The position numbers and the translations under genes are program-made. The notes under the pieces are model-generated. The model did not search any database. It had not been told where the DNA came from and saw only the letters and a list, made by a program, of their open reading frames with translations. This document shows positions 20,794 through 26,665 of a stretch of 64,000 nt of DNA, piece by piece. The stretch covers positions 682,001 through 746,000 of the forward strand of contig NZ_CP011452.2 in NCBI RefSeq assembly GCF_001008165.2, read 5' to 3'. The stretch comes from Croceibacterium atlanticum (GTDB taxonomy: Bacteria > Pseudomonadota > Alphaproteobacteria > Sphingomonadales > Sphingomonadaceae). Each line of letters begins with the position of its first letter. Position 1 is the stretch's first letter.

Positions 20794-22553
20794 AAACACT
20801 GATTTCTGCCCTGGGCGTCGCGACAGTCGCATTCGCGGCATTTCCTGCCGAAGCGCGCAGCAGCCGCGAATATTTTGTCGCCCATGCGGTCGGCCACGCC
20901 GCGCCTCGCCAGCTGAGCCAGGCCGATCACGCATATTACACGGAAGTTTTCGACCAGATCGACCGGCAGAACTGGGACCGGGTGAAGGAATTGCTGGCCC
21001 AGCGCGATGACGGGTTGCTGCAACGCGTTGCAGAAGCGGAATTCTACCTGGCGGGCAATTCTCCCCGTGTCGAACTGCCGCAAATCCTGGACTGGCTGCA
21101 ACGGGGCCGCAACCTGCCGCAGGCCGCGCAGATGGGCCGGCTCGGCCTCGCCCGCGGTGCCGCCGAACTGCCCCGACTCCCGGCGGAGAATGCCCTTTAT
21201 TCGCGCAATGGCAGCCCCAAACGCGTCAAGCCGCGCTCTGTCGACGATGGCACCATGCCCGACAATGTGCGCAGCCAGATCCTTGATCGCATCGTCAATG
21301 ACGATCCCGACGGGGCACGCCAATTGCTCGACGGGATCGACGGCGCGCTGAGCGGGGAAGCCCGCGCCGAATGGCGCCAGCGCGTCGCGTGGAGCTATTA
21401 CATCGAAAACCGGGATGAAGCTGCACTGGCCATGGCCAGTGCCGTTTCGGCCGGCAAAGGCGCCTGGGTGGCAGAGGGTGATTGGGTTGCCGGTCTTGCC
21501 GCATGGCGCCTTGGCGATTGCGGGATTGCCAGCGATGCCTTCCAGCGCGCGGCCTATGGCGCAGTCAATCCGGAACTGCGTGCCGCGTCCTATTACTGGG
21601 CGGCGCGGTCCGCCCTGCGTTGCCGCGAGCCTGACAAGAGCGCCGATTTCCTGCGCCATGCGGCCCAGGCGGACGAGACATTGTACGGCATGCTGGCGGC
21701 CGAACAACTCGGCATGGAACTTCCGGCGCGTCTCGCCCATTCCGATTTTTCCGATGCGGACTGGCGCCGGATCGGCGGCATAGAAAACGTCCGCATCGCC
21801 ATCGCCCTGTCAGAAATCGGGCGGGATCGGCTTTCAAGCGAAGTATTGCTGCATCAGGCCAGGCTGGGCGATCCGGCCGATTACGGGCCGCTGTCTCGCC
21901 TCGCTCGTGATCTCGGCATGCCTTCGACGCAGCTCTATATGGCTTACAACGCGCCCAATGGCGGAGAGCCGGACCCATCATCCTATTACCCCACCCCGAA
22001 ATGGGAGCCTGTAACGGGCTGGAGGGTCGATCCCGCGCTGGCCTATGCCCACACCCTTCAGGAATCGAACTTCCGCGCCAATGCGATCAGTCCGGCAAAT
22101 GCGCAGGGGCTTATGCAGATCACGCCGATCACGGTGCGCGAACATGCCGGCCGCCTGGGCCTCAGCGCCAGCCAGGTCGATATTCTCGATCCTGGATACA
22201 ATCTCGCTTTCGGTCAGCAAAACCTTGAAATGCTGAGAGATCAATCGGCCACAAGGGGCGCGTTGCCCAAGATCATGGCGGCCTATAATGCCGGGCTTTC
22301 CCCGGTCACGCGCTGGAACAGCGAGATCAACGATCAGAACGATCCATTGTTGTACATGGAATCGATTCCCTATTGGGAAACGCGCGGCTATGTCGCCATC
22401 GTCATGCGAAATTACTGGATGTATCAGCGGCAGGCCCATGCGCCATCGGATAGCCGCGTGGCACTGGCACAGAACGACTGGCCGAAATTCCCCGATGCCG
22501 ATGGAGATAACCGCAATGGCGGCCGCGTCTATTTGTCGGCAGGTGCGCAATAA
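20790..22553 (+). CDS. Lytic murein transglycosylase (Slt family)
   Basis: 587 residues. Signal peptide MKTLISALGVATVAFAAF ending before AEARS. A long alpha-helical superhelical region with TPR-like repeats is followed by a GH23 domain with HTLQESNFRANAISPANAQG; the catalytic Glu is residue 425. Later motifs AYNAGLSPVTRW and ETRGYVAIVMRNYWMYQR complete the fold. It cleaves peptidoglycan glycan strands to 1,6-anhydro products in the periplasm. The start overlaps the upstream stop (ATGA) and its stop overlaps the moaB start (TAATG). Confidence 0.93.
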   Translation: MKTLISALGVATVAFAAFPAEARSSREYFVAHAVGHAAPRQLSQADHAYYTEVFDQIDRQNWDRVKELLAQRDDGLLQRVAEAEFYLAGNSPRVELPQILDWLQRGRNLPQAAQMGRLGLARGAAELPRLPAENALYSRNGSPKRVKPRSVDDGTMPDNVRSQILDRIVNDDPDGARQLLDGIDGALSGEARAEWRQRVAWSYYIENRDEAALAMASAVSAGKGAWVAEGDWVAGLAAWRLGDCGIASDAFQRAAYGAVNPELRAASYYWAARSALRCREPDKSADFLRHAAQADETLYGMLAAEQLGMELPARLAHSDFSDADWRRIGGIENVRIAIALSEIGRDRLSSEVLLHQARLGDPADYGPLSRLARDLGMPSTQLYMAYNAPNGGEPDPSSYYPTPKWEPVTGWRVDPALAYAHTLQESNFRANAISPANAQGLMQITPITVREHAGRLGLSASQVDILDPGYNLAFGQQNLEMLRDQSATRGALPKIMAAYNAGLSPVTRWNSEINDQNDPLLYMESIPYWETRGYVAIVMRNYWMYQRQAHAPSDSRVALAQNDWPKFPDADGDNRNGGRVYLSAGAQ

Positions 22554-23079
22554 TGGCGATTGATGAAAGCAGGCAGTTCAAGCCGATCAATATCGCATTG
22601 CTGACCGTGTCGGATACGCGCGGACCGGATGAAGATACGTCGGGCGATCTGCTGGCCGCCAGGATAGAGGCTGCCGGCCACAAGCTGGCGGACCGCGCAA
22701 TCCTGCGGGACGATGCCGATCTGATAACGGCCAAGCTGAATGAATGGATCGAAAATCCCGATGTCGATGCCGTGATCTCCACCGGGGGACCGGGCTGACC
22801 GGGCGCGACGTAACGCCGGAAGCGCTCGACCGCGTGAAGGAGAGGGACATCCCCGGCTTTGGCGAATTGTTCCGCTGGATCAGTTACAACACGATCGGCA
22901 CCAGCACAGTTCAATCGCGGGCCTGCGCCGTGGTGGCACGTGGCACCTATGTCTTTGCCCTGCCCGGCTCCAACGGCGCGGTTAAGGATGGCTGGGACAA
23001 TATTCTGGCCGAACAGCTGGATGCCCGAAACCGGCCCTGCAACTTCGTGGAATTGATGCCCCGCCTTCGGGAAAAATAG
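22553..23079 (+). pseudogene. moaB: moaB, frameshifted (molybdenum cofactor biosynthesis protein B)
   Basis: The first 81 codons read as MoaB ([30 protein letters not shown]) and stop at 22798. The rest of the protein ([35 protein letters not shown]) continues in the +2 frame to 23079. The break falls at a run of five Gs (22784-22788): one more base there would restore [11 protein letters not shown], the family pterin-binding motif. Either a single-base loss or a sequencing error in the G run. MoaB/MogA-type proteins adenylylate molybdopterin; this copy would yield only a truncated product. The ATG overlaps the upstream stop. Confidence 0.85.
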
Positions 23080-23116: not shown

Positions 23117-23131
23117 GTTCTTGCTATGTTC
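23117..23131 (+). promoter_or_regulatory. SOS box (LexA site) upstream of truncated radical SAM gene
   Basis: GTTC TTGCTAT GTTC is an exact match to the alphaproteobacterial LexA consensus GTTC-N7-GTTC. It ends five bases before the ATG at 23137. The same box with the same spacing precedes the complete homologue at 24335, which supports function. Confidence 0.8.
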
Positions 23132-23136
23132 CTATT

Positions 23137-23424
23137 ATGGAACGTCGCAAGGAGCCTGCGATTCATGGACGAGGAGCGCAATCGGCGCATGTCCCGCAGC
23201 GCTTCGGCCTGGCCAATCGCGAAGCCGATGGCGACTGGCGAGATGCGATGGAGGCGCTGGACGGCCCCCCGGTAAAGTTGCGCACGAGCGTGACGGAGGA
23301 ATTTCCGAAGACCATCCTCAGCTTCAACCAATCGCCGGATATCGCCTTCGACCGTTCGATCAACGCCTATCGCGGCTGCGAGCATCTTCCCGACAGTTAT
23401 GTAGCAATAACTTCAACGAGTTAG
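23137..23424 (+). pseudogene. Truncated PA0069-type radical SAM protein, 5' fragment
   Basis: The first 83 codons align with the N terminus of the complete radical SAM gene at 24335 (shared ERFGL-like start, FPKTILSFNQSPDI, FDRSIN, GCEH). Similarity ends at 23385, right after the first Cys (Cys81) of the C-x3-C-x2-C iron-sulfur motif. Twelve unrelated codons then lead to a stop. Without the cluster and barrel it cannot be an active radical SAM enzyme. Codon use is like the surrounding chromosome, so I take this as the native 5' end severed by the insertion of the following DNA. Confidence 0.82.
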
Positions 23425-23486
23425 ATAGTTTTGGACTTCAAACCAAATGACTGCTTTGGCTCATCCTGCGGAAAAAGCTGCCTTTC

Positions 23487-23515
23487 AGCTTACGACCCGA
23501 TTGCGGACATTCGCT
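23487..23515 (+). repeat. Imperfect repeat, left copy, flanking the membrane gene
   Basis: AGCTTACGACCCGATTGCGG and the following ACATTCGCT resemble the segment at 24209-24238 (GCTT, ACCC, GGAC and TCG blocks conserved, roughly two thirds identity by eye with one gap). The pair brackets the membrane gene. The match is weak and could be chance. Confidence 0.35.
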
Positions 23516-23535
23516 TAGTCCGACAATGTCGGCCA

Positions 23536-24204
23536 ATGTGGCTTCGAGTTCATGTTGCAGAGTGGCAGACGCCCTACCGCCAGTTGGTCTACTGGTTCAT
23601 CGCCGCTTTAGCCTGCTTCGTAGCTACGTCGACGGCTTTATGGTTCGGCGGATTTATCGGAGTTCCTTTCGCTTTTCTCGCTGCGTTCGCCCTAGCCGTC
23701 GGTTGGCTCATCCTTCTACTGCTAAGCTTGAAGGTTGCTTGGGTTCGGCGGGACCGACCTAAGCAGGCGTTGTGCGCAGGAGCAGCACCGCTCGGAGCAA
23801 TCGGATTGGCTCTCGCATTTGCATTGCCAGTCATGTGGGCTGTTGCCTGGACCTTTGACTGGGCCTCCTTCCTCAACAACCGCTCGGACTATGAAGAGGT
23901 GGTCCGCCTTGCACGGGAAGGGCGGTTTGACGCCAAAGTGCGAGAGTATCAAGAGCACGATGGAACCACGTTCATGCTCGATGAGGGTCCGCCACGTCGA
24001 GTGGCCTTTCCAATGCCCGGAGGGTTCCTCGATAACTGGTCGGGAGTCATTTACGATCCGACTGGAGAGGTCATGTTGGCGGACGGCTTTGATTCAGAAA
24101 CCGGTGAATTCGCGGCACCGGAGCGGATTACCAAGCTGTTTTACGGTGACATAGTTTCCTGTCGGCACATGCTGGGCAGCTTCTACAACTGCTCTTTCAC
24201 CTGA
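23536..24204 (+). CDS. Hypothetical membrane protein on a foreign-looking segment
   Basis: 222 residues from the ATG at 23536; an earlier in-frame TTG at 23431 would read through a repeat-like region and is less likely. Three hydrophobic segments (about residues 18-40, 43-66 and 82-106) are followed by a soluble C-terminal domain with no motif I recognise (YEEVVRLAREGRFD, FMLDEGPPRRVAFPMPGG). Codon choice and base composition are visibly more A+T-rich than neighbours. It lies between the broken and complete radical SAM genes, so it is probably acquired. Function unknown. Confidence 0.62.
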   Translation: MWLRVHVAEWQTPYRQLVYWFIAALACFVATSTALWFGGFIGVPFAFLAAFALAVGWLILLLLSLKVAWVRRDRPKQALCAGAAPLGAIGLALAFALPVMWAVAWTFDWASFLNNRSDYEEVVRLAREGRFDAKVREYQEHDGTTFMLDEGPPRRVAFPMPGGFLDNWSGVIYDPTGEVMLADGFDSETGEFAAPERITKLFYGDIVSCRHMLGSFYNCSFT

Positions 24205-24208
24205 CTTC

Positions 24209-24238
24209 TGCTTCCCACCCAAATAATGGACGCTCGAT
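24209..24238 (+). repeat. Imperfect repeat, right copy, flanking the membrane gene
   Basis: TGCTTCCCACCCAAATAATG followed by GACGCTCGAT is the partner of the left repeat at 23487-23515. It starts four bases after the membrane gene stop. Function unknown; similarity is modest. Confidence 0.35.
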
Positions 24239-24314
24239 GAGTTTGAACGAGCGCCTGTAAGCGGACATTGCTCTCCGCGCGACTCCTCACTGATCTGGAT
24301 CGACAAGCCGCTCT

Positions 24315-24329
24315 GTTCTTAATATGTTC
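24315..24329 (+). promoter_or_regulatory. SOS box (LexA site) upstream of complete radical SAM gene
   Basis: GTTC TTAATAT GTTC matches the alphaproteobacterial LexA consensus exactly and ends five bases before the ATG at 24335, the same geometry as the first copy at 23117. Predicts damage-inducible expression. Confidence 0.83.
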
Positions 24330-24334
24330 CGGCA

Positions 24335-25405
24335 ATGGAATACACCAAAGGCAGAGGTGCAGCCTCCAATCGCGCCAGCGAGCGCTTCGGATTACCGGCG
24401 CATCATCAAGACGGCGAATGGCGTGAAGAGCGAGAGGCCGTGGATGGCCCTTCCATGGCTGCATCTACTGCCGTCACGGAACTGCACCCGAAGACAATTC
24501 TCTCGTTTAATCAGTCGCCTGACATCCTTTTCGACCGCTCAATTAACCCTTTTGTGGGCTGCGAACATGGCTGCATCTATTGCTTTGCCCGCCCTAGCCA
24601 TGCCTATCACGATCTTTCTCCGGGCCTGGATTTCGAGACGAAGCTTTTTGCCAAGCCCGATGCGGCCCGCCTTTTGCGTGAAACCCTGGCCCGGCGCCGA
24701 TATCGCCCGCGTCCCATAGCCATGGGGACCAATACGGATCCCTATCAGCCGATCGAAAGCCGTTACCGGATCACCCGGGAAATCCTGGAAATCTGCCTCG
24801 AAACTCGCCATCCGGTCACCATCACGACCAAGTCGGACCGCGTGCTGCGCGATCTGGATCTGCTCGTGCAATTGGCGGAACGGCAATTGGTCGCAGTCGC
24901 TTTATCCGTCACGACCCAGGACCCCCGGCTTTCCGGCCTGCTCGAACCGCGCGCCTCTTCCCCGGCAAAGCGGATGGCGGCGCTTGCCCGGCTGGTGCAG
25001 GAAGGAGTGCCTGCCCATTGTTCGGTCGCTCCGGTCATTCCCGCCATTACCGATTGCTTCATGGAAGAGATCCTGCAGCAGGCCGGCGATGCGGGGGTGA
25101 AATCCGCCGGCTGGATCGCCCTGCGCCTGCCGCATGAAGTGGCCCCTCTGTTTCGCGAATGGCTGAGCGTCCATTTCCCGGATCGCGGGGACAAGGTGAT
25201 GTCCATTGTCCGTTCCATGCGCGGCGGCAGGGACAATGATCCCCGGTTCATCTCCCGCATGAGGCCGCGCGGCGTATGGGCGGAATTGTTCCGCAGCAGG
25301 TTCCGCATCGCCCGCAAACGTGCCGGCATGGGCCGGCCTAGGTTCGAGCTGGATTGCAGCCAGTTCCGCCGTCCGCAAGATGGTGTACAGATGCAACTCA
25401 TCTAG
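24335..25405 (+). CDS. PA0069/SPL-like radical SAM protein, complete copy
   Basis: 356 residues. The motif GCEHGCIYCFARP places the 4Fe-4S cysteines at 76, 80 and 83 in a C-x3-C-x2-C pattern, as in spore-photoproduct-lyase-like proteins of the PA0069 family. Barrel motifs follow (IAMGTNTDPYQPIE, ITTKSDRVLRDLDLL, VALSVTTQD). The reaction is unknown; the SOS box suggests a DNA-damage role. The first 80-120 codons use T- and A-ending codons unlike the rest of the gene, suggesting a foreign 5' end joined to a native 3' part; see the finding on this region. Confidence 0.85.
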   Translation: MEYTKGRGAASNRASERFGLPAHHQDGEWREEREAVDGPSMAASTAVTELHPKTILSFNQSPDILFDRSINPFVGCEHGCIYCFARPSHAYHDLSPGLDFETKLFAKPDAARLLRETLARRRYRPRPIAMGTNTDPYQPIESRYRITREILEICLETRHPVTITTKSDRVLRDLDLLVQLAERQLVAVALSVTTQDPRLSGLLEPRASSPAKRMAALARLVQEGVPAHCSVAPVIPAITDCFMEEILQQAGDAGVKSAGWIALRLPHEVAPLFREWLSVHFPDRGDKVMSIVRSMRGGRDNDPRFISRMRPRGVWAELFRSRFRIARKRAGMGRPRFELDCSQFRRPQDGVQMQLI

Positions 25406-25543: not shown

Positions 25544-26665
25544 TTGAGGAAACTGGTAATCGGCCTCGCCACCGCCACTGCGGTTGTTGCGACGCCTGCT
25601 GTCGCTCGCGATGGTCAGCTTTATACCGGCATCGAAGGGGGCATCCTGTTCCCTGAACAGCTGGATCTGGAAGATGATGCGGACGACAGCATTTTCGTCG
25701 AAGGCAATAATGGCTGGGAAGGCGATGTCCTGCTCGGTTATGACTTCGGCATGTTCCGCCTGGAAGCGGAAGGCGGATATAAGTCCTACGGCACGGAACA
25801 GGTAATTTCGAACGCTGCGGGCATCCCCGGCATTGAAGAGCCGCTCGTGCTCGGAGCATATGATTCGATCAACAGCAGCGACGTTTCCGTGTGGAGCGGC
25901 ATGGTCAACGGCCTGCTCGACTTCGGTGGCGAAAAGGGTGTCGGCTTGTCGCTCGGTGGCGGCATCGGCATCGCGTCGGTCAAATCGAAGATCGCAACCA
26001 CGGTTGGCGGCTTCCTGAACGACCGGGATTCCGGTTTTGCCTATCAGGGCATTGCCGCCCTTCGTGTTCCCGTGACCGAACGAATCGATCTGGGCGTGAA
26101 ATATCGCTATTTCCGCGTCGACAATCTCGATTTCGTCGACACGACCGGACGCGCGCTGGAAACGGACCTTGCCACTCACTCGGTTCTGGGTTCGGTGGTA
26201 TTCAACCTCGGTGGCAAGGAAGCTGCACCGCCGCCTCCTCCGCCTCCGCCGCCGCCTCCCCCGCCGCCGCCTCCTCCGCCCCCGCCGCCTCCGCCTCCGC
26301 CTCCGCAGGCTGTGTGCAACAAGGGGCCGTACATCGTGTTCTTCGACTGGGATAAGTCGGACATCACGCCCGAGGCTGCGACCATTCTCGACAGCGCCGT
26401 CACTGCCTATGGCAATTGCGACAGCGTGCCGATCATGCTCGCAGGCTACACCGACCGTTCCGGTACGGTGGAATACAATCTCGGCCTGGCCGCTCGCCGC
26501 AATGAAAGCGTGCAGGAATATCTGACTGGCAAGGGTATCCCCGCCGGTTCGATCACCAGCGAAGCTTTCGGCGAAGCCAATCCGCGCGTTCCGACCGCTG
26601 ACGGCGTTCGCGAACCGCAGAACCGCCGCGTCGAAATCACTTACGGTCCGGGTTCGGGCATGTAA
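25544..26665 (+). CDS. OmpA-family outer membrane protein with 28-proline linker
   Basis: 373 residues from a TTG start behind a strong GAGGAGG ribosome site. Signal peptide MRKLVIGLATATAVVA up to PAVA-RDG, then an eight-strand OmpA-like barrel (about 22-225). A run of 28 uninterrupted prolines (residues 229-256) links to a C-terminal OmpA peptidoglycan-binding domain (VFFDWDKSDITPEA, AGYTDRSGTVEYNLGLAARR, NRRVEI). It should tether the outer membrane to peptidoglycan. The proline run would require EF-P for translation and may vary in length between strains. A strong terminator follows. Confidence 0.93.
   Translation: MRKLVIGLATATAVVATPAVARDGQLYTGIEGGILFPEQLDLEDDADDSIFVEGNNGWEGDVLLGYDFGMFRLEAEGGYKSYGTEQVISNAAGIPGIEEPLVLGAYDSINSSDVSVWSGMVNGLLDFGGEKGVGLSLGGGIGIASVKSKIATTVGGFLNDRDSGFAYQGIAALRVPVTERIDLGVKYRYFRVDNLDFVDTTGRALETDLATHSVLGSVVFNLGGKEAAPPPPPPPPPPPPPPPPPPPPPPPPPPQAVCNKGPYIVFFDWDKSDITPEAATILDSAVTAYGNCDSVPIMLAGYTDRSGTVEYNLGLAARRNESVQEYLTGKGIPAGSITSEAFGEANPRVPTADGVREPQNRRVEITYGPGSGM

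Follow-up and report, generated by a model that had tools for sequence, protein, structure and literature searches.

A radical SAM gene of the PA0069 family lies broken at positions 23,137 to 25,405 of a 64,000-nucleotide stretch of Croceibacterium atlanticum (contig NZ_CP011452.2, positions 682,001 to 746,000; hereafter the window), where a 5' fragment ends abruptly and a complete homologue follows about 1.18 kb later. The question raised by this locus is what came to lie between the two copies, and how a complete gene nevertheless came to stand behind it. Our best reading is that the window holds one of a family of Sphingomonadales cassettes, kin to serine-integrase phages, that carry one gene and no recombinase and restore the 5' end of the gene they enter. 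We consider it probable that the locus is such an integrated cassette, and the likeliest catalyst would be a large serine integrase of phage type, supplied in trans. The features of the locus, all on the forward strand, are as follows.

23117..23131, + strand: LexA-type box GTTC-N7-GTTC of the native radical SAM promoter (perfect motif)
23137..23384, + strand: native 5' fragment of the PA0069-family radical SAM gene (residues 1–82 plus two bases of the His codon; 89% amino acid identity to the gene of the same-genus genome G001; NF033668, 3e-14)
23377..23384, + strand: left core copy TGCGAGCA, attL-type junction, the end point of the fragments in all eight cassette genomes
23385..23408, + strand: left terminus of the insert, belonging to the set with consensus nCCCCGCAACGGTTGTGTAA but divergent (comparison of eight cassettes)
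23536..24204, + strand: cargo gene of 222 amino acids, a membrane protein by eye, with matches in few family genomes (best G014)
24315..24329, + strand: LexA-type box carried by the insert (perfect GTTC-N7-GTTC)
24335..24559, + strand: replacement 5' coding end of 75 codons, the sole coding part common to all eight cassettes
24545..24559, + strand: right terminus of the insert, reading Asn-Pro-Phe-Val-Gly, in which the residue before Gly-Cys is unlike that of the natives
24560..24567, + strand: right core copy TGCGAACA, attR-type junction (sequence comparison)
24568..25405, + strand: native 3' part of the hybrid radical SAM gene (81% amino acid identity to G001; residues 75–120 identical to G001)

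A hybrid gene behind a severed 5' end

The native fragment stops within the Gly-Cys-Glu-His codons, which hold the first Cys of the iron-sulfur motif, and the complete copy, which starts at 24335, has the same four codons at 24557–24568. The near-identical 12-mers that drew attention to the locus, GGCTGCGAGCAT at 23374–23385 and GGCTGCGAACAT at 24557–24568, are both present. Between the two 8-bp cores lie 1,175 bp that comprise the left terminus, the 222-residue open reading frame (ORF), a LexA-type box and the 75 new codons. As proposed in the original prediction, this DNA is A+T-richer than its surroundings (54.6% G+C vs 61.9% in ~1.2 kb of flanks) and carries its own perfect copy of GTTC-N7-GTTC, which we take to be the LexA/SOS box of Alphaproteobacteria. 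The complete gene passes the NCBIfam model NF033668 of the PA0069 family (438 bits, cut-off 360), and the Rv2578c-family model scores the window protein at 197 bits, below its cut-off of 430. No recombinase is found among the ORFs of the insert, in agreement with the original prediction, and the cassette itself is not a serine-integrase element by its content; nor is it a GInt, as a ginABCD-type operon is absent from the insert. No hairpin signal is seen near the right end of the insert (z −0.98).

The two halves of the complete gene differ in their relationship to the same-genus gene of G001. While the first 83 residues of the N-terminal fragment show 89% identity to it, as expected for a native sequence, the complete gene shows 59% over residues 1–75 (70 aligned) and 81% over residues 76–356. 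The 27 native relatives have mean identities of 0.81 (N-part) and 0.82 (C-part) among themselves, whereas the corresponding values of the hybrid against these relatives are 0.57 and 0.77, making its C-minus-N gap an outlier of 7.2 standard deviations. Incoming DNA with a diverged 5' end has rebuilt the gene as a hybrid, as had been proposed. The uninterrupted state is seen in G001, where a single radical SAM gene is collinear with the window flanks, and in G002, which has the same gene order around one uninterrupted gene; both represent the empty site. Ordinary tandem paralogues, one of them decayed, would also place two copies side by side, but such an explanation is scarcely credible: only one copy exists in both same-genus relatives, all but eight of the matching family genomes have one N-terminal match, and the two halves of the complete gene differ in history. 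The locus combines element-borne 5' codons and a promoter motif, a core copy at both junctions and an empty site in relatives, as in 5'-restoring integrated elements.

The position of the right-hand switch point is less sharply drawn, as the composition of the window copy alone gives no exact position. The amino acid change-point of the complete gene falls at codon 46 (43–55), away from the core, probably because codons 47–78 are conserved. The claim that the 3' part is native holds for its protein sequence, with the 81% identity to G001, but codon use just past the motif is unclear, with a low G+C content at third codon positions (GC3) of 0.50 over 20 codons.

To account for this arrangement, we propose that a DNA unit of ~1.18 kb, probably circular, would have been recombined by a site-specific recombinase at the 8-bp core TGYGARCA within a radical SAM gene under the putative control of an SOS box, where this core codes for the first Cys of the CxxxCxxC motif. 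Integration would have severed the native promoter and the first 82 codons, and the right end of the cassette would supply a promoter with its own LexA-type box, together with 75 substitute codons, by which the gene would be rebuilt as a hybrid. Such units form a family with unrelated cargo, the 5' module and left-terminus motif of which recur in phage contigs, and they may still be mobile today.

Recurrence at the same codons

A profile of the N-terminal region matches 357 of 397 family genomes, 349 of them once and eight twice. Six of the eight double matches are cassettes (the window genome, G068, G095, G107, G128 and G355); in the other two, G387 carries an island and G007 has one gene in two pieces. 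A pattern consisting of the native end followed by CCC, which detects only cassettes beginning with CCC (that of the window does not), gave three hits in 84,980 named species genomes, all of them cassettes and all in Sphingomonadales: Sphingomonas sp. SCN 67-18, with the same terminus as G068, Sphingobium nicotianae H33 and the Sphingomonadales metagenome-assembled genome REEB392. For the latter two (G397 and G398), a complete radical SAM gene was confirmed downstream. With these, eight cassettes are known, six in family genomes plus G397 and G398, such that the arrangement recurs in seven further genomes (Sphingomonadales where named) with the same layout, at the same codons and with unrelated cargo.

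Break points were surveyed in 18 family genomes, among the matches listed, in which the gene is doubled or incomplete. The break lies at the core in 12 of them, namely the six cassettes, islands in G161 and G387, and G021, G066, G300 and G275. In the remaining six, the gene looks frameshifted (G007 and G009), is reduced to residues 262–356 (G141) or is cut by contig ends (G124, G246 and G297), the contig of G124 ending just past the core. Because other cases break at the same codons, we accept site-specific joining. The proposed join inside the Cys motif stands on this recurrence, but not on the shared motif alone, which would be expected for any cut gene with a full second copy. Homology-facilitated illegitimate recombination, in which a foreign linear fragment pairs within the radical SAM gene and its other side is joined at random, would likewise yield a 5' fragment and a hybrid gene, and the right-hand boundary in the window is indeed not sharp in composition. 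However, scattered breaks would then be expected, whereas eight cassettes, two islands and several relics share their codons, and the cassettes also share a left terminus, making this route very improbable.

Several further loci bear traces at this site. In G066 (L077, 3545–4350), the radical SAM codons are absent from the core to about codon 161, the gap beginning at the core, and in G275 (L100) a decayed gene with a degenerate core at the break is followed by one long ORF and a 3' scrap, perhaps a ruined cassette. The genes of G002 (L004) and G148 (L020) are complete and have cassette-type 5' ends, with no upstream fragment seen; they may be old, cleaned-up insertions or donors, and the contig of G148 ends ~1.1 kb upstream of the gene. 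In G355, the fragment itself (L097, 1788–2018) has a cassette-type 5' end and its frame stays open into the cargo region, which suggests that a second cassette cut the first one in two rounds of insertion.

The eight cassettes have core-to-core distances of 1183, 1108, 782, 818, 633, 707, 625 and 695 bp, and every insert is A+T-richer than its own flanks. In an all-against-all translated comparison, the cassettes have in common only their last 210–270 bp, which form the radical SAM 5' module, and brief stretches of similarity at the left terminus. The left termini are alike over ~20 bp and then diverge, mean pairwise identity falling from 0.64 to 0.48 and 0.27 over the first three 10-base intervals past the core. 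None of the eight restored genes has Arg before Gly-Cys, a residue found there in fragments (10 of 11) and in the other complete genes (30 of 32); the exceptions are the G355 fragment and the genes of G002 and G148. In addition, the GC3 of the restored 5' end is lower than that of the fragment in all eight cases and lower than that of the next 20 codons in six, the window and G355 being the exceptions. A LexA-type box is perfect in five inserts (window, G107, G128, G068 and G095) and has one mismatch in G397; none is present within 110 bp in the inserts of G355 and G398.

Phylogenies of the two parts, for which fragments were collected by a regular expression demanding Gly-Cys-(Glu/Asp) codons, are discordant. 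The N-parts of the eight restored genes form one group with L004, L020 and the G355 fragment (92/88, 69 columns; below the star level of the tool), whereas the C-parts of the hybrids scatter with their hosts, and a single clade of the eight C-parts is rejected (approximately unbiased (AU) test, p = 2e-5). Matching histories of the two halves, like tandem paralogues in relatives, had been named in the original prediction as what would speak against an insertion; neither is observed.

The cargo genes offer few clues to their function, since the seven proteins tested (that of G398 was left out) have no Pfam, PADLOC or PHROG match. Of 297 other family genomes, 10 have a match to the window cargo, which in one case extends over only 26 amino acids, and no plasmid or phage match was found for it. 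The best family match, in G014, shares 81% of its amino acids and has codon-position identities of 0.87, 0.90 and 0.69. Judged by the longest plausible ORF, the choice of which is uncertain in G095, G355 and G398, the cargo points forward in four cassettes (window, G107, G128 and G398) and backward in the other four (G068, G095, G355 and G397). Cargo under SOS control was considered as a general rule and rejected on account of this mixed orientation.

Other features of the window stand near the cassette. The motif GCGGACRTT occurs six times (17653, 18715, 21786, 23503, 24261 and 43923; expected 1.75, with 0 of 100 shuffles reaching six), two copies flanking the cargo gene, and is perhaps a dispersed intergenic repeat. 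By eye, the upstream neighbours are lytic transglycosylase-like and moaB-like genes and the downstream neighbour is OmpA-like. The moaB-like gene (22553–23079) is split over two reading frames but forms one frame in both same-genus relatives, indicating a sequencing error or a pseudogene, and the OmpA-like gene contains a long run of proline codons (~26227–26308).

Phage contigs and recombinase-like islands at the site

In the viral contigs L138/L143 (endolysin) and L140, phage genes run into a radical SAM gene with a cassette-type 5' end; two further viral contigs, L141 and L142, have native-type ends. The phage genes of L140 encode a major head protein, a tape measure protein and the N-part of a serine integrase (phrog_95, E 1e-24). 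The 13-mer AACGGTTGTGTAA, which is exact in the cassette of G398 and has one mismatch in that of G095, sits 55 bp before this integrase gene, and a copy with two mismatches follows a core-like octamer in the same contig (0.11 matches expected; 0 of 200 shuffles with two). Because L140 has both an integrase gene and the terminus motif, we favor catalysis by a serine integrase. In IMG/VR, the core followed by 7–8 bases and ACGGTTGTGTA, a pattern written to fit L140, occurs in one contig, L140; the terminus consensus had been noted before L140, and only the lack of other IMG/VR hits counts as independent. The terminus pattern GCANCCCCRYAACGGTTGTG had no match among viral contigs, and one viral contig matched by a looser cassette pattern was rejected, as it has no radical SAM similarity.

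The existence of phage contigs with the same 5' module raises the alternative that the insert is a prophage relic, left when a temperate phage integrated at the core and its interior was later lost, with both ends, the 5' module and a single gene from the right end surviving. Accessory genes are often found close to the end of a phage genome, and L140 itself looks deleted. Such decay would have to explain, however, why all eight inserts keep both ends with room for about one ORF within a narrow size band of 0.63–1.18 kb, why the tested cargo proteins have no relatives in PHROG, and why, by eye, G014 and G125 carry their copies of the window cargo gene away from phage genes. We therefore regard a relic as unlikely.

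Islands of another kind, with tyrosine-recombinase-like operons, use the same codons. In G161 and G387, a radical SAM fragment with the same end point is directly followed by a four-gene operon, encoding proteins of 436, 664, 819 and 165 amino acids in G161 and 431, 624, 729 and 158 in G387; the three genes compared share 33–42% identity. The integrase likeness in G161 is clear for the first gene (phrog_1, 3e-21) and weak for the third (phrog_216, 6e-6; PF00589, 0.001); the second has no model match. The gene order fits that of GInts, in which three integrase-like genes and a small gene stand next to the left junction. The G387 island spans ~45 kb and reaches a headless radical SAM 3' part; it also contains a whole radical SAM paralogue behind a GTTC-N7-GTTC box (L098, 5109–6185) and, by eye, a large methyltransferase-like gene. 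G001 also has a diverged homologue of the second gene of this operon (L116, C1:2435013), away from its radical SAM gene.

That cassettes are moved in trans by such tyrosine-recombinase operons, which look like those of GInts and strand-biased circularizing elements (SEs), is suggested by the shared codons and by the homologue in the same-genus G001. We give this little credence, as the island termini (GTTATGTCGGG, GTTCTCCGTAG) are unlike the cassette consensus, the islands provide no in-place restoration of the 5' end, the five cassette hosts of the 298-genome sample are not among the nine genomes with the second island gene, and the L140 motif points to a serine integrase instead. As a resident mobilizer the operon was rejected: the window genome has no homologue of the first gene of G161 and no match to the second-gene profile.

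Several observations weigh against a cassette family moved by a phage-type serine integrase. Terminal inverted repeats are weak, with p values of 0.08–0.36 for single cassettes (none significant) and 0.003 when pooled, and the left terminus of the window is far from the consensus. A search of the 397 genomes for the left terminus with up to three mismatches gave six matches, the cassette of G095 and five unrelated places (control, 1), and missed the window and four other cassette hosts. Placing the restored N-part of the window with the natives is not rejected (AU p = 0.23, 69 columns), and the grouping of the restored 5' ends ceases to be exclusive once two phage sequences are added to the tree. 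Both the 13-mer test and the core-spacer-motif pattern were cut after L140 was known, such that its match is not independent. Moreover, L140 is not a clean prophage, having no radical SAM fragment before the motif and an integrase ORF that is cut short, neither it nor L138/L143 has an assigned host, and no INPHARED phage matched the cassette-type 5' end. No recombinase was identified in the host, although serine integrases were not searched for there or in the other hosts, and that any recombinase acts on the cassettes is something we infer.

Relation to known elements and implications

The habit of restoring a 5' end is known from dusA-specific integrative elements (IMEVchUSA3) and from the integrative and conjugative element SXT in prfC (PMC8409611, PMC4542580). 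These elements are large and have int and rdf genes, whereas the cassette is smaller than 1.2 kb, has one gene and no recombinase and, unlike them, replaces ~75 codons up to the Cys of an iron-sulfur motif. The Streptomyces phage Samy uses a serine integrase with an attB site within an Rv2578c-family radical SAM gene (PMC12924846), the family model of which is also matched, below cut-off, by the window protein; the likeness is one of gene family, the host is a Streptomyces, and the phage is reported to inactivate its target gene in the native host and not to restore it. In the case of phiJoe / SCO2603, a single site in a radical SAM gene is used by serine-integrase elements that differ greatly in size and content (PMC5311408), but the gene is of the B12-binding type, the site lies 74 bp from its 3' end, and the elements described keep their recombination genes. 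The islands of G161 and G387 resemble GInts (PMC5385486) and strand-biased circularizing elements (PMC10214605) in having a comparable four-gene operon at one end, whereas the cassettes have no such operon and have other termini. The Tn554 relative Tn552-II, a staphylococcal drug-resistance transposon, combines tnpABC with a stand-in for the gene it breaks (PMC12486829), which is reminiscent of the whole radical SAM paralogue in the G387 island. Among the matches listed, no title or abstract dealt with single-gene cassettes at this site, most subscription journals lying outside the scope of the literature covered.

Integron gene cassettes also comprise one gene per unit, have no recombinase and enter at a fixed site beside a host promoter. 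In contrast, the cargo described here faces either way in about equal parts and the entered gene is restored; no array was seen, and attC and IntI were not looked for. It is conceivable, and we put it forward tentatively, that a phage serine integrase underlies an integron-like system in Sphingomonadales, in which single-gene cassettes would be moved in trans into one fixed, SOS-controlled radical SAM gene. Each cassette would bring a spare promoter and 5' half, by which the platform gene would survive each round, and forward cargo would come under the host SOS promoter.

A 5'-restoring cassette of this kind, as a mobile unit of one cargo gene and a spare 5' half of its target, would be much smaller than the 5'-restoring islands known so far, and it recurs with unrelated cargo. 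The radical SAM gene, with its DNA-damage-type promoter, would be a landing site shared by cassettes, phages and recombinase islands. Cassettes may also explain odd hybrid N-termini in databases, and they would offer a testable system of mobilization in trans.

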